Shown piece by piece: positions 6,586-28,015 of a stretch of 44,798 nt of DNA. A program made the position numbers and the translations under genes. The stretch covers positions 1 to 44,798 of the forward strand of contig BJHS01000016.1 of NCBI GenBank assembly GCA_014193315.1, in the 5' to 3' direction. Below the pieces are notes generated by a model. That model had not been told where the DNA came from, made no database searches, and saw only the letters and a program-made list of their open reading frames with translations. Origin of the DNA: Verrucomicrobiota bacterium (GTDB lineage Bacteria > Verrucomicrobiota > Verrucomicrobiia > Opitutales > UBA953). Every line of letters begins with the position of its first letter. The first letter of the stretch is position 1.

Positions 6586-7565
6586 GTGCGAAGAACCGCC
6601 AGCTCCTTCCTGCTTTGCCTCACGGCACTGGGTTGGTCGGCGCCTCGCCCGAACTACAGCGCCGAAGGGATGACCTTCGACGGCACGCTCTGCCTCGACG
6701 CCGCGACGGGCGAGGTGCTGTCGCAAAACCGACCGGACGTCGCGGGCCATCCGGCCAGCGTGACAAAGTTGATGACGATGCTGCTCGTGCTGGAAGACAT
6801 CCAGGCAGGCAAGACCACGCTCGCGACCCAGGTTCAGGTGACGAAAGCGGCGGCCGGCGTGGGCGGGTCCTAGGTCTGGCTGGCGCCTGGGAAAAATTCC
6901 CCGTCGAAGAGCTCCTTTACGCGATCATGCTGCAATCGGCCAACGATGCCGCGGTCGCCCTCGCCATCGACCGCGCCGGCACGGTGCCCGCCTTCGTCGA
7001 ACGCATGAACCAGCGGGCCGTCGAGTTAGGCATGACGCTGACGCGGTTCGTGACCCCCAACGGGCTGACGACGGGCCGCGGCCCGCATGACATCACCACC
7101 GCCCGCGACCTGGGCAAGCTCTGCGTCGAGCTTTGCAAACGACCAGAGGCGCTCCGCTTCACTGGGACGCAGAACCATCGCTTCGCGCGGTTCCTCAAGC
7201 CTGTCGACATGGTGAACCACAACCACCTGCTACCCACGTTCCCCGGCTGCGATGGCCTGAAGACCGGCTGGACCGTGGCGGGCAAGGCCTCGATGGTCAC
7301 GACCGCAGCCGATGGCCCGCGCCGGGTGATTGCCGTGGTGCTCGGTTGCGACAGCCCGCAGGAAGCCAAGGCGGCGCAACGCCTGCGCGACCAACTCGCC
7401 GCCGAACTCATGCTGGAAGGGCTGACTAAACTCGCCGAAAAAGAGCTCGCGAAAGAACGTTCACCGAAAGCCGTTCCCTTGGCGTCGGCGGCCCTAAAAA
7501 AGGTATCGATCGCGAAGGAGGAACCGGGGTTCTGGGCTTGGGTGGGTGATTTATTTAGTTTTTAA
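6586..7565 (+). pseudogene. D-alanyl-D-alanine carboxypeptidase (PBP5/DacA-type), broken by an amber codon and a frameshift
   Basis: The first segment starts at a GTG (6586, or 6580) with GAGGA 9 bp upstream, has a signal peptide, and carries the SxxK motif as SVTK near residue 58. It ends at TAG at 6871-6873. The reading continues as VWLAPG in the same frame, then needs one extra base in GGGAAAAA (6889-6896) to join EKFPVEELLYAIMLQSANDAAVALA, which holds the SxN motif (SAN). The KTG motif (DGLKTGWT) and the remaining C-terminal part are intact to the stop at 7565. In relatives the junction reads like GGSQVxLxxGE, so the TAG most likely replaces CAG. All catalytic motifs survive, so this is either a very recent pseudogene or a local sequence error. 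The enzyme would trim D-Ala from peptidoglycan in the periplasm. Confidence 0.85.
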
Positions 7566-7669: not shown

Positions 7670-8752
7670 ATGTCCGCTAAAACCGAACCCACCGCCAAGG
7701 AAAAATCTGCCAACCAGGCAGCCGAGAAGAAGACCCTCGATCTGGCTCTTTCCGCCATCAACAAGCAGTATGGCGACGGCACCCTGATGCGGATGGGCGA
7801 CGCGACCAAGATGCAGGTCTCGTCTGTCTCCACCGGCTCGGTCGCCATCGACCTCGCCTTGGGCGTCGGTGGCCTCCCCCGCGGTCGTATCGTCGAAATC
7901 TTCGGCCCGGAGTCCTCCGGTAAGACGACCCTCTGTCTCTCCATCATCGCCGAGATCCAGCGCCAGGGCGGCAACGCCGTCTTCGTGGACGTCGAACACG
8001 CCCTCGACCCCCGCTACTCCAAGGTAGTCGGCGTCGACCTCGACAACCTCCTCGTCTCCCAGCCGGAATCCGGCGAAGACGCCCTCAACATCGTCGAAAC
8101 CCTCATCCGCTCCGGTGCCGTCGACGTGGTCGTCATCGACTCCGTCGCCGCCCTCGTCTCCAAGCAGGAGCTCGACGGCCAGATGGGCGACGCGACCGTC
8201 GGCGTCCAGGCTCGCATGATGAGCCAGGCCATGCGCCGCCTCACGGCCGCCATCAGCCGCACCAATTGCATCTGTATCTTCACGAATCAGATTCGCGAAA
8301 AGATTGGCGTGATGTTCGGTAGCCCCGAGACCACCCCCGGTGGTCGCGCCCTCAAGTTCTTCTCCTCCGTCCGCATCGACATCCGCCGCATCGGCCAGAT
8401 CAAGGAGCCTTCCGGCAAGGTCATCGGTAACCGCACCAAGGTGAAAGTCGTGAAGAACAAGGTCGCCCCGCCTTTCACCGAGTGCGAGTTCGACATCATG
8501 TACACCGAAGGTATCTCCCGCTCCGGCTCGGTCCTCGACCTCGGCATCGAACACAAGATCCTCGAGAAGAAGGGCGCCTGGATCGCCTATAACGGCCAGC
8601 TCATCGGCCAAGGCCGCGAAGCCGCCAAGGACTACCTCATCAAGAACCCGAAGGTCCTGGAGGAAATCCAGAAGACCATCATGGAGAAGGTCCAGGTCGT
8701 CGGCGGCATGACGCTGGGCGTCGGCGTCGCCGAGAACGTGACGGCCGAATAA
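7670..8752 (+). CDS. recA: Recombinase RecA
   Basis: A 360-residue protein that matches RecA over its whole length. It shows the Walker A motif GPESSGKT (79-86), the [13 protein letters not shown] region, the Walker B-like [11 protein letters not shown], the L1/L2 DNA-binding stretches ([22 protein letters not shown] and [33 protein letters not shown]-like positions), and the family C-terminus. It forms filaments on single-stranded DNA, promotes strand exchange and triggers LexA cleavage. The SOS box at 7598-7611 indicates damage-inducible control. No Shine-Dalgarno sequence is evident before the ATG. It is transcribed alone and followed by a strong terminator. The N-terminus is slightly extended and rich in Lys/Glu/Ala. 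Confidence 0.98.
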
Positions 8753-10212: not shown

Positions 10213-10217
10213 AGCCA

Positions 10218-10384
10218 TCCCCTGCAGTGTTCGACACCCGCGGCAGCCTCCCTTCCCTACGAACATAATATACGGGAGGTGCGACCCGACCGGCCTCGTC
10301 CGAGCCGTGGCAACGTACCGCCCACCTAAATCCAGGAAAAAGTGGAGCTCCAATCGGAATCGGCACAGGTGGGGGACCTTTTTT
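10218..10384 (+). ncRNA. ssrS: 6S RNA (SsrS) candidate
   Basis: The stretch begins with ATCCCCTGCAGTGTTCGACA, matching the strongly conserved 5' strand of bacterial 6S RNA (CCCTG followed by TGTTCG). The 3' strand CGGCACAGGTGGGGGACC can pair back to close the terminal stem. The roughly 165-nt length, the long rod-like pairing potential and the T6 run at 10379-10384 all fit. A promoter lies directly upstream. No protein-coding frame here is convincing. 6S RNA binds housekeeping RNA polymerase by mimicking an open promoter and damps transcription in stationary phase. In many bacteria it sits beside ygfA; here it is followed by repeat arrays and then by convergent DUF1552. Identification is by eye; a covariance-model search would settle it. 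Confidence 0.72.
10367..10384 (+). terminator. Terminator of the 6S RNA gene
   Basis: AGGT-GGGGG-ACCT followed by a run of six T (10379-10384). The hairpin is short, but the T-run is clear and coincides with the 3' end expected for the RNA. Confidence 0.5.
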
Positions 10385-10399
10385 GCAGAGTCAAAGAGT

Positions 10400-10448
10400 T
10401 CGGAGTGCCGAGAACAGAGTACGGATTACGGAGTACAGAGTACTGAAT
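10400..10448. repeat. Heptanucleotide tandem array, ACAGAGT orientation
   Basis: Seven contiguous 7-bp units, of which five are clear: ACAGAGT, ACGGATT, ACGGAGT, ACAGAGT, ACTGAAT (10414-10448). Two weaker units precede them. The array lies 16 bp past the 6S RNA terminator. Its unit is the exact reverse complement of the units in the arrays at 10565-10669. Confidence 0.8.
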
Positions 10449-10564
10449 CGAGGGCAGCATCGAGGGCTGAATCGATCGCTGAAACGGTGAGTGGGCCGAG
10501 TGCGGGGCGAAGGATTCGAATCCAGCATCCCGTCCCACGCGCGCCCCTAATCGACCCTAAACCC

Positions 10565-10669
10565 TATCCGTACTCCGCACTCAGTACTCTGTAATCCTTA
10601 CTGAGCGCTGTATCCACTAATTGATTCTAAACTCTATCCGCACTCTGTACTCTGAACTCTGTACTCTAT
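10565..10669. repeat. Heptanucleotide tandem arrays, ACTCTGT orientation
   Basis: Two arrays of the 7-bp unit in the opposite orientation. The first (10565-10606) includes ACTCCGC, ACTCAGT, ACTCTGT and AATCCTT. The second (10624-10669) has two units, a 4-bp slip, then ACTCTGT, ACTCTGA, ACTCTGT, ACTCTAT. It stops 1 bp before the DUF1552 stop codon. With the array at 10400-10448 it forms a long imperfect inverted repeat around a 110-bp centre. Confidence 0.8.
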
Positions 10670-10670
10670 C

Positions 10671-11987
10671 CTAGCCCAGCTTCAACGCCCCGCCCGCGCA
10701 GAGGCTGGGATTCCCGAAAGTCTTCATCGGGTGGCCAAAGCTCTGGGCGATTGCCATGAGGAGACGGTTGTGGGGCTCCTTCTTGAACTTGAGGGCACGA
10801 CCCGTCGTGAAGCCGAGGCCACCGCCGATCAGCACCCACGGGATATCCTCGAGGGCATGGCTGTTGCCTTTGCCGAGTTCATTCGTCCAGACAATCGTCG
10901 TGTGGTCGAGCATCGAGCCGCCGCCATTGGGCTCCGGGGTCTCCTGCAGGCGCTTGGCCAGGAAGGCGATCTGCTCGGCGAACCAGGTGTTTATCTTGGT
11001 GAGTTTCTCCAAGGAACCGGTGTTCAGGTCGGGGTCGTGCGAGAGCGAGTGGTGCCCTTCCTCGATGCCCAACCACTTCATGCGGATGCCGCCCACGGAG
11101 TTACTGAACTGGAAGGTCGAGACGCGGGCGAGGTCGTTCTGGAAGGCGCTGATGAGCAGTTCGGTCTGCATCTTGGTGATGAGCGGGATGTTGTCGTTCT
11201 CCATCATCACGCCGACTTCGGGCGCGGTCGGGACGAGCAACGCCCCGGAGGTCTGCTGCTCCTTCATGTTGCGTTCCAACTCGCGTAGCGCGGTCGTGTG
11301 CTGGTCGAGTAAGCCCCGGTCCTTGGCATCGACGGCCCGGGAAATCGTGGTGAGCTCATCGCGCAGGCCATCCAGGACGGAGACCATGCTTTCCCCTTCT
11401 TTCATCTGGCCGTAGAGCTTGTCAAAGAGGTCGTACGGGTTCGAAATCGGGGCGACCGGCTGATTGGCGCCGACGTAACTCCAGCGGGTCCAAGGGTCCG
11501 CGCGGTTGCCGACGGAGATGCCGATCTCCAGCGAGCCGAGGCGGGTCTTGGTCTCGGGGCGAGACTGCAGGAAGCGGCGAATCTCCTGGTCGATGGACGG
11601 CCCGCTGGCCCAGCCGGCGGGTTGACCGCCACCACCCATGATGTTCCCCGGGAAGAGCTCGATGCCCGTCAGGAGGCAGCTCATCCCGCGCATGTGCGAA
11701 TCGCCGTCGCCGCGCACCAGGTTGTTCACGCCCTTCAGCGTGAGCAGCCGATCCTTGAACGGGGCCAAGGGCTGCAGGATGCGCTTGAGTTTGAAGTCGC
11801 GGCCTTCACCTTCCGGCCAGAACTCCGTCGGCACGGTGCCATTGGGCGAGAAGACGAAGATGAGGCGTTGCTTCGGGGCCGACGGCGTGTCGGCGCCTCG
11901 CAACGAAGTGAAGCCGTGCAGGAGAGGTAACGCGGCGGCGGACAGGCCGAGTTTGCGAAGGAAGTCGCGGCGGTTTTGCAGGTTCAT
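10671..11987 (-). CDS. DUF1552 domain-containing protein, Tat-exported
   Basis: A 438-residue protein opening MNLQNRRDFLRKLGLSAAALPLLHG, a twin-arginine signal (RRDFL). The body is typical of DUF1552: RLIFVFSPNGTVPTEFWPEGEG, GDGDSHMRGMSCLLTG, SGPSIDQEI, GNSHALEDIPWVLIGGG. This family is abundant in Planctomycetes and Verrucomicrobia and is nearly always encoded next to a DUF1592-type cytochrome-like protein, as here (14 bp downstream of it). Tat export suggests that a cofactor is inserted before export. Its biochemical role is not known. It is the last gene of the operon, ending against the heptamer arrays. Confidence 0.92.
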   Translation of the reverse strand: MNLQNRRDFLRKLGLSAAALPLLHGFTSLRGADTPSAPKQRLIFVFSPNGTVPTEFWPEGEGRDFKLKRILQPLAPFKDRLLTLKGVNNLVRGDGDSHMRGMSCLLTGIELFPGNIMGGGGQPAGWASGPSIDQEIRRFLQSRPETKTRLGSLEIGISVGNRADPWTRWSYVGANQPVAPISNPYDLFDKLYGQMKEGESMVSVLDGLRDELTTISRAVDAKDRGLLDQHTTALRELERNMKEQQTSGALLVPTAPEVGVMMENDNIPLITKMQTELLISAFQNDLARVSTFQFSNSVGGIRMKWLGIEEGHHSLSHDPDLNTGSLEKLTKINTWFAEQIAFLAKRLQETPEPNGGGSMLDHTTIVWTNELGKGNSHALEDIPWVLIGGGLGFTTGRALKFKKEPHNRLLMAIAQSFGHPMKTFGNPSLCAGGALKLG

Positions 11988-27943: not shown

Positions 27944-28015
27944 CGGGGCCACACCCACTTAATGGGGTCAGACCCCATTAAGTGGGTCTGACCCTGTTAA
28001 TACGGTCTGGCCCCG
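27944..28015. repeat. REP-like palindromic element
   Basis: The core is a perfect inverted repeat with 17-bp arms (ACCCACTTAATGGGGTC at 27953-27969, a single A, then GACCCCATTAAGTGGGT at 27971-27987). A further copy of the TCTGACCC-N2-TTAA motif follows, and outer arms CGGGGCCA (27944-27951) and TGGCCCCG (28008-28015) close the element. The GGGGTCAGACCCC core is reminiscent of REP sequences mobilised by Y1-type (RAYT) transposases; no such gene is in the window. It sits between two divergent genes. Confidence 0.85.

Follow-up and report, generated by a model that had tools for sequence, protein, structure and literature searches.

The window analysed here is a stretch of 44,798 nucleotides from a Verrucomicrobiota bacterium whose genome (G000) comprises 2.36 Mb in 44 contigs. 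It carries a 6S RNA gene at 10216..10379 on the + strand (RF00013, 47.5 bits; gathering score 46.4), in a stretch that is conserved at the orthologous loci, and a DUF1552 gene at 10671..11987 on the - strand (PF07586, E 4.1e-78; stop codon 10671-10673). The two genes are convergent, and both point at arrays of a heptameric repeat that sit between them. The unit is GAGTACN, often altered from copy to copy. The left array (10396..10451, +) is purine-rich, consists of eight degenerate units and is prolonged by 12-bp repeats of the type CTGAATCGAGGG (10443..10483, +), while the reverse complement of the unit forms two arrays on the right, at 10569..10596 (-) and 10639..10666 (-). These edges apply at a strict threshold of at least 13 of 15 matches to GAGT-C over three units; looser matching extends the first right array to 10565 and gives the second one edges of 10635-10669. 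TRF reports a period of 7 at 10396-10443 and 10642-10667. The arrays are thus as real as an earlier sequence-only reading of this DNA had claimed, including a last unit that ends one base short of the DUF1552 stop codon. The spacer between the facing arrays (10452..10568) measures approximately 117 bases, not 110 as given in that reading, and its right part is mostly common to the distant relative G007. The right side as a whole (10556..10671, -) contains a putative diverged duplication with an offset of 70 bp, in which CCTAAACCCTATCC at 10556-10569 corresponds to TCTAAACTCTATCC at 10626-10639.

The two sides were described in the same reading as exact reverse complements of each other. As the units are degenerate, this is true of the unit and not of the whole arms, for which we found 74-90% complementarity over 16-36 nt in ungapped pairs, with 85% for 10414-10439 against 10567-10592 and 78% for 10411-10446 against 10637-10672. 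A transcript crossing the site could nevertheless form the long imperfect hairpin that had been proposed: the predicted RNA fold of 10390-10675 has a free energy of -105.1 kcal/mol compared with -82.28 (sd 4.91) for shuffled sequences (z -4.65), and none of 200 shuffles folded as well. No gene was called across the arrays, and their 7-bp units follow one another without spacers, so the site is neither coding sequence nor CRISPR. In an Rfam scan of the window only the 6S RNA and one tRNA reached the gathering score and the arrays matched no family. Between 10100 and 10800 we found no tRNA remnant that could account for the spacer, and no terminator-like site with a short G+C-rich stem and a U-tract behind it. 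Six consecutive T (10379-10384), read from the sequence directly after the 6S RNA gene, may already end that RNA.

Heptamer arrays in the genome and the genus

Neither of the two outcomes that would have counted against the repeat, a lack of other copies and a periodicity no better than chance, was found. A three-unit pattern with at most two mismatches has 104 matches (52+52) in the own genome, compared with 12 (3+9) for the reversed pattern, and 142 intergenic regions of G000, in stretches chosen around arrays, contain 33 period-7 arrays whatever the unit, against a mean of 0.0 over 20 dinucleotide shuffles. The observation itself is therefore confirmed as real and above chance. For the intergenic analyses, genes were taken from a home-made caller; the stretches of G000 and G033 were picked around arrays, and those of G006, G007, G025 and G028 at regular positions on hand-picked contigs. 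In the latter group the intergenic period-7 arrays came to 10 for G006, 8 for G007, 1 for G028 and none for G025, where shuffles averaged 0.0-0.1. The two-mismatch listing of the own genome falls into 22 clusters, several consisting of one weak match each; the strict threshold leaves 17, which puts the number of array-bearing places at about 20. One of the 17 strict clusters (L064, 7570-7590) overlaps a called gene; it is a weak match and probably due to chance.

Among 55 genomes of the genus, which is taken to be one of freshwater Verrucomicrobiota and probably of Opitutae, a search with at most one mismatch gave at least one match in 33. The counts are bimodal, with at least 14 matches in 12 genomes, referred to below as array-rich, and at most 5 in the other 43. 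The period of 7 is not the only one: G000 contains further arrays with periods of 8 (19 arrays), 12 (9) and 6 (5), and in G028 there are 7 with a period of 8. The commonest word is GAGTAC in G000 and G007, GGGGAT together with GAGTAC in G006, and GGTGGC in G028.

GAGTACN also occurs in many phyla, in at least 118 stretches, of which 80 loci were examined. In viral contigs, however, a scrambled unit, TGAGCAN, was found in 44 stretches, and outnumbers GAGTACN (21), GGGGATN (16) and CATGAGN (7). We therefore make no claim that GAGTACN is special, and its occurrence across phyla was rejected as a mark of common descent. One locus, L123 of Clostridium hydrogenum, holds eight GAGTAC-type arrays in 8 kb, and the four displayed are near-identical blocks, perhaps of a separate dispersed element. 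A role of the heptamer as a methylation motif was likewise rejected: the single methylated motif listed for the Verrucomicrobia bin BS8, whose record agrees with G006 in its coordinates, in the accessible part of PMC6329791 is AGGNNNNNRTTT, not a heptamer.

Short tandemly repeated heptamers (STRR) also lie between genes in cyanobacteria, with units that differ from the one found here. Repeats of this length between genes have been described as over-represented in bacteria. The available part of PMC4692102 describes GGGAATC in Xanthomonas and GGGGA(C/T)T in Nostoc/Anabaena, leaving their function open. The present arrays resemble these in kind, as the sequence-only reading had suggested for cyanobacteria: they have a tandem unit of 7 nt, are dispersed and mostly intergenic, and vary between close relatives, and those of Xanthomonas likewise come in inverted pairs (PMC4692102). 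They differ in belonging to another phylum, in the change of unit at one and the same site, and in having relatives with unrelated hairpins there. In addition, GAGTACN has no GGG run, which is a trait of the Xanthomonas and Nostoc units and not of heptamer repeats generally. The quadruplexes seen with oligonucleotides in that study (PMC4692102) are accordingly not expected here, although two-layer ones are possible where the last base is G, and G006 does carry GGGGATN, a unit with a G run. The TAACTGA repeats of marine Beggiatoaceae are similar in being intergenic direct repeats of a heptamer, with many sets per genome and a scattered distribution (PMC4679880). Unlike the arrays studied here, they mostly lie just upstream of start codons, and the Guaymas genome is credited with 169 direct sets and one indirect repeat, so inverted pairing is not the rule (PMC4679880). 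Among the titles and abstract openings of published, mostly open-access papers, we found no description of heptamer or tandem repeats in Verrucomicrobia or Opitutae.

Orientation, folding and flanks of the arrays

Period-7 arrays in G000, G006 and G007 together were present in 14/58 convergent, 21/173 tandem and 4/70 divergent intergenic regions (convergent versus divergent, Fisher p 0.004). This bias comes mainly from G000, where the stretches were chosen around arrays, and G007 alone shows no difference (3/23 convergent versus 1/8 divergent). Divergent genes flank two of the array regions in G000, one of which folds with z -6.2. The scarcity between divergent genes is shared with Xanthomonas, for which few such arrays are reported in the accessible text, along with 70 and 75 cases of facing pairs in two genomes (PMC4692102); for Anabaena the same text reports few inverted pairs.

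The predicted folding of intergenic regions follows gene orientation as well. With regions longer than 400 bp excluded, the median z over five genomes was -2.42 for convergent (n=52), -0.78 for tandem (n=195) and -0.11 for divergent regions (n=98). A z below -2 was obtained for 13 of 19 regions with GAGTAC arrays. The convergent regions of G000 that lack such arrays fold too (median z -3.22), and since they do so equally well, the arrays contribute nothing visible there.

In all 18 regions with both orientations, the first purine-rich (+) array precedes the first - array, so that the purine-rich strand reads away from the gene edge; in one of them (L279, at 7190) a + array also follows a - array. 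The same placement is found in Xanthomonas and Anabaena (PMC4692102). Of 78 period-7 arrays of any unit, 63 are purine-first inward, 14 outward and 1 ambiguous, and 10 of the 14 outward arrays are centred at 0.35-0.65 of their region. For the 80 named cross-phylum loci we counted 16 inward pairs within 400 bp, derived from 10 organisms, against 1 outward, with 15 versus 3 and 11 versus 1 in other scorings. TGAGCAN, the scrambled control that turned out to be a real repeat, gave 12 inward versus 2 outward in viral contigs. In G000 such a skew is general: averaged over intergenic regions, with or without arrays, purines prevail on the left and pyrimidines on the right.

Arms from the same region of G000 match each other better than arms from different regions in all orientation classes (convergent 14.6 versus 9.8, reached in 0 of 2000 permutations). 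In the corresponding test on G006, same-region arms were no better (p 0.23 and 0.36).

Lastly, the base composition next to the arms is skewed. The 10 nt before the left arms contain 36% A (binomial versus 25%, p 0.001) and the 10 nt after 18 right arms contain 34% T (p 0.014), compared with 18-23% A and 19-23% T at the edges of array-free regions. Again, the 16 pairs from other phyla show the same tendency, with 32.5% A before the arms versus 21.5% in their loci and 35% T after them versus 23.1%. An A-rich stretch before the arms and a T-rich one after them is how a two-way terminator whose tail is weak would be laid out.

The same site in relatives and the turnover of its insert

A DUF1552 match was found in 48 of the 55 genomes, and the best 30 loci were read downstream of the stop codon. 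In 28 of these the 6S anchor was found and the insert between the two was folded (L191 and L206, which did not fit the anchor pattern, were dropped). The relatives retain both genes, and the inserts between them are unrelated in kind. L183, L184 and L188 have GAGTAC arms, and L187 has GGGGATGG with CCATCCCC. L199 and L201 are examples of GCGGTTA-type heptamers on one side and CATCTGY-type heptamers on the other, with further palindromes between them. L195 has a long inverted repeat, and L197 and L207, from the array-free genomes G028 and G025, have short terminator-like hairpins. Palindromes of the GGTAGGG type such as GACAGCACGTGGTGCTGTC, REP-like in look, recur in the inserts of L190, L192, L200, L205 and others. 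The inverted repeats of L195 and L204 contain the word GGGGTCAGACC or GGGGTTAGACC, the same word as in a repeat of 19-bp period found elsewhere in the window (27945-27994, GGGGTCAGACCCAATTAAG).

Despite this variety, 21 of the 28 inserts fold with z below -2 on both strands. L193, L198 and L202 miss this value on one strand, and L209 folds weakly (z -1.0, -1.7). The inserts of L185 (-0.1, 0.9), L186 (-0.9, 1.0) and L189 (-0.7, -1.2) fold no better than shuffles; these three hold mixed 12-bp and 7-bp repeats and all come from among the six closest relatives.

At a few loci the arms are shown to change in length by steps of 7 bp. In 31 comparisons of array length between relatives, 4 were equal and 12 of the 27 unequal ones differed by a multiple of 7, where approximately 4 would be expected, some loci and reciprocals being counted twice. 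The steps would be explained by slippage, and an alternative to any function is that the arrays are neutral low-complexity DNA, in which replication slippage favouring steps of 7 nt is tolerated between genes only, template switching between the facing arms keeps them complementary, and selection against damage to promoters causes the shortage between divergent genes. Besides the excess of 7-bp differences, the occurrence of periods 6, 8 and 12 and the general purine-left, pyrimidine-right skew of intergenic regions fit this account, and 7 nt has been proposed as the stretch held by the polymerase (cited in PMC4679880 and PMC4692102, in the parts available). On its own, however, it leaves unexplained the inward polarity of the arrays and the other hairpins present at the site in array-free relatives, and we regard it as possible, if somewhat doubtful.

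Whole hairpins have also been exchanged or copied, at two loci. At the DUF1552/6S site, the inserts of G033 and G037 are 98.7% identical over 150 positions with a 14-bp (two-unit) difference, although their flanks are only 91.5, 95.0 and 88.8% identical, whereas G033 and G039 have flanks of 94.5, 97.5 and 98.8% identity and unrelated inserts. The near-identity of the G033 and G037 inserts against the order of the flanks points to an exchange of the insert as a block between species (L184, L185, L188). The second locus, L061 on contig C11 of G000, has two whole hairpins, arms and spacer, at approximately 7047-7198 and 8563-8719 that are inverted copies of each other (local alignment of about 155 bp), with an MFS transporter gene between them. 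Both cases are what would be seen if the hairpin were a MITE- or REP-like mobile element of small size, its arms built of heptamers, that an enzyme encoded elsewhere moves as a whole. However, homologous recombination accounts equally well for the exchange among G033, G037 and G039, and a conserved core is missing: among 9 spacers of G000, compared in 36 pairs, there is one clear match (score 46), followed by a score of 23 with a shuffled maximum of 18. A proper MITE would share its core, so the differing spacers count against one. Nor does a candidate enzyme track the arrays. Y1_Tnp (PF01797) was found in 28 of the 55 genomes, namely in 8 of the 12 array-rich and 20 of the 43 others, with no match in the array-rich G000, G007, G012 and G033, and a RAYT as mover or writer of the arrays was rejected on this distribution. 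A mobile element thus seems quite unlikely.

Between G000 and the distant G007 (L212), whose DUF1552 genes are 77% identical, the spacer (window 10452-10568) is better shared than the arms, which would make the arms the faster-changing part. Closer relatives hold other inserts, even though this spacer is common to G007. Of three other array sites traced in relatives, two lack the array in at least one relative that has the gene, some contigs ending early; at the third, L049, the sole relative with the full gene has no array. In G033, two arrays of L279 (1880-2480 and 2900-3150) each begin after a common leader (approximately AAAGAGTTGAGGGG), which precedes their first unit. About 430 bp starting inside the first of these arrays are missing from G037, and arrays can thus be deletion end points.

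A candidate two-way terminator hairpin

The reading that we favour, with evenly balanced confidence, is that the facing arrays form a rapidly evolving hairpin between convergent genes, which changes in 7-bp steps and would serve as a two-way terminator or mark 3' ends. Read from either side, RNA would meet the purine-rich array first and its pyrimidine-rich complement second. A pyrimidine RNA strand forms a weaker hybrid with DNA. The purine-first order would thus allow the nascent transcript to fold while the pyrimidine RNA strand lies in the polymerase, whichever gene is being transcribed. The hairpin would then stop transcription arriving from either side, or give the RNA a protected 3' end, and would keep the DUF1552 transcript from running into the 6S RNA gene and vice versa. 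That transcripts end at the hairpin is what we infer from the sequence.

The comparison with known bidirectional intrinsic terminators goes both ways. Here, too, a hairpin lies between convergent genes with A-rich sequence before and T-rich sequence after it, but the arms are long and imperfect and the T tail is weak (34%). A stable hairpin is predicted at the gene ends, except at L185, L186, L189 and L209 and, on one strand, at L193, L198 and L202, and a U-tract is missing. Of the two functions raised in the sequence-only reading, a two-way transcription barrier gains from the inward polarity, the convergent bias, the unrelated hairpins at the site and the A/T flanks; it loses from the empty terminator scan and from the three of six closest relatives without a significant fold.

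The other function raised there, an array bound by a protein on DNA or RNA, was neither strengthened nor eliminated. Regular spacing and the many loci would suit it, and RNA-binding regulators have been suggested for the TAACTGA repeats upstream of start codons in the accessible part of PMC4679880. The units are degenerate, however, and they vary between close relatives and even inside one genome, which argues against one fixed site and makes binding very unlikely. DNA-uptake words, which in Neisseria and Pasteurellaceae also serve as terminators, offer a formal parallel, in that a repeated word comes in inverted pairs at gene ends and the facing words often form terminator hairpins (PMC1852404, as far as accessible). 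Those words are nevertheless fixed at 9-11 nt and generally number at least 1,000 per genome (PMC1852404), compared with tandem degenerate arrays at about 20 places here, and an uptake function is hardly credible. The least probable account, that a reverse transcriptase wrote the arrays off a short RNA template, would explain one dominant unit per genome that differs between species, but G031 is the single one of the 55 genomes in which PF00078 was found, so that the remaining 11 array-rich genomes have no match.

Returning to the two-way hairpin, heptameric intergenic repeats and their facing pairs are already known (PMC4692102, in its available part). New are the taxon, a unit that lacks GGG runs, its change at one and the same site, and the unrelated, partly terminator-like hairpins found there in relatives. 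A much broader and on balance improbable extension would be that heptamer arrays across phyla are one thing, namely two-way transcription-ending hairpins with free letters. Their constant features would be a step of 7 nt, a purine-rich array in first place and arms that pair, and their letters would be swapped blockwise, even across species. If true, this would give Xanthomonas, Nostoc and other heptameric repeats a common function without the need for quadruplexes, against which, as a common function, a unit without GGG runs also argues. The question of function becomes testable in these relatives, where a single gene pair is parted in some by a heptamer hairpin, in others by a different palindrome or by a short hairpin of terminator-like form: if all such inserts stop transcription, heptamer arrays would be terminators with free sequence.
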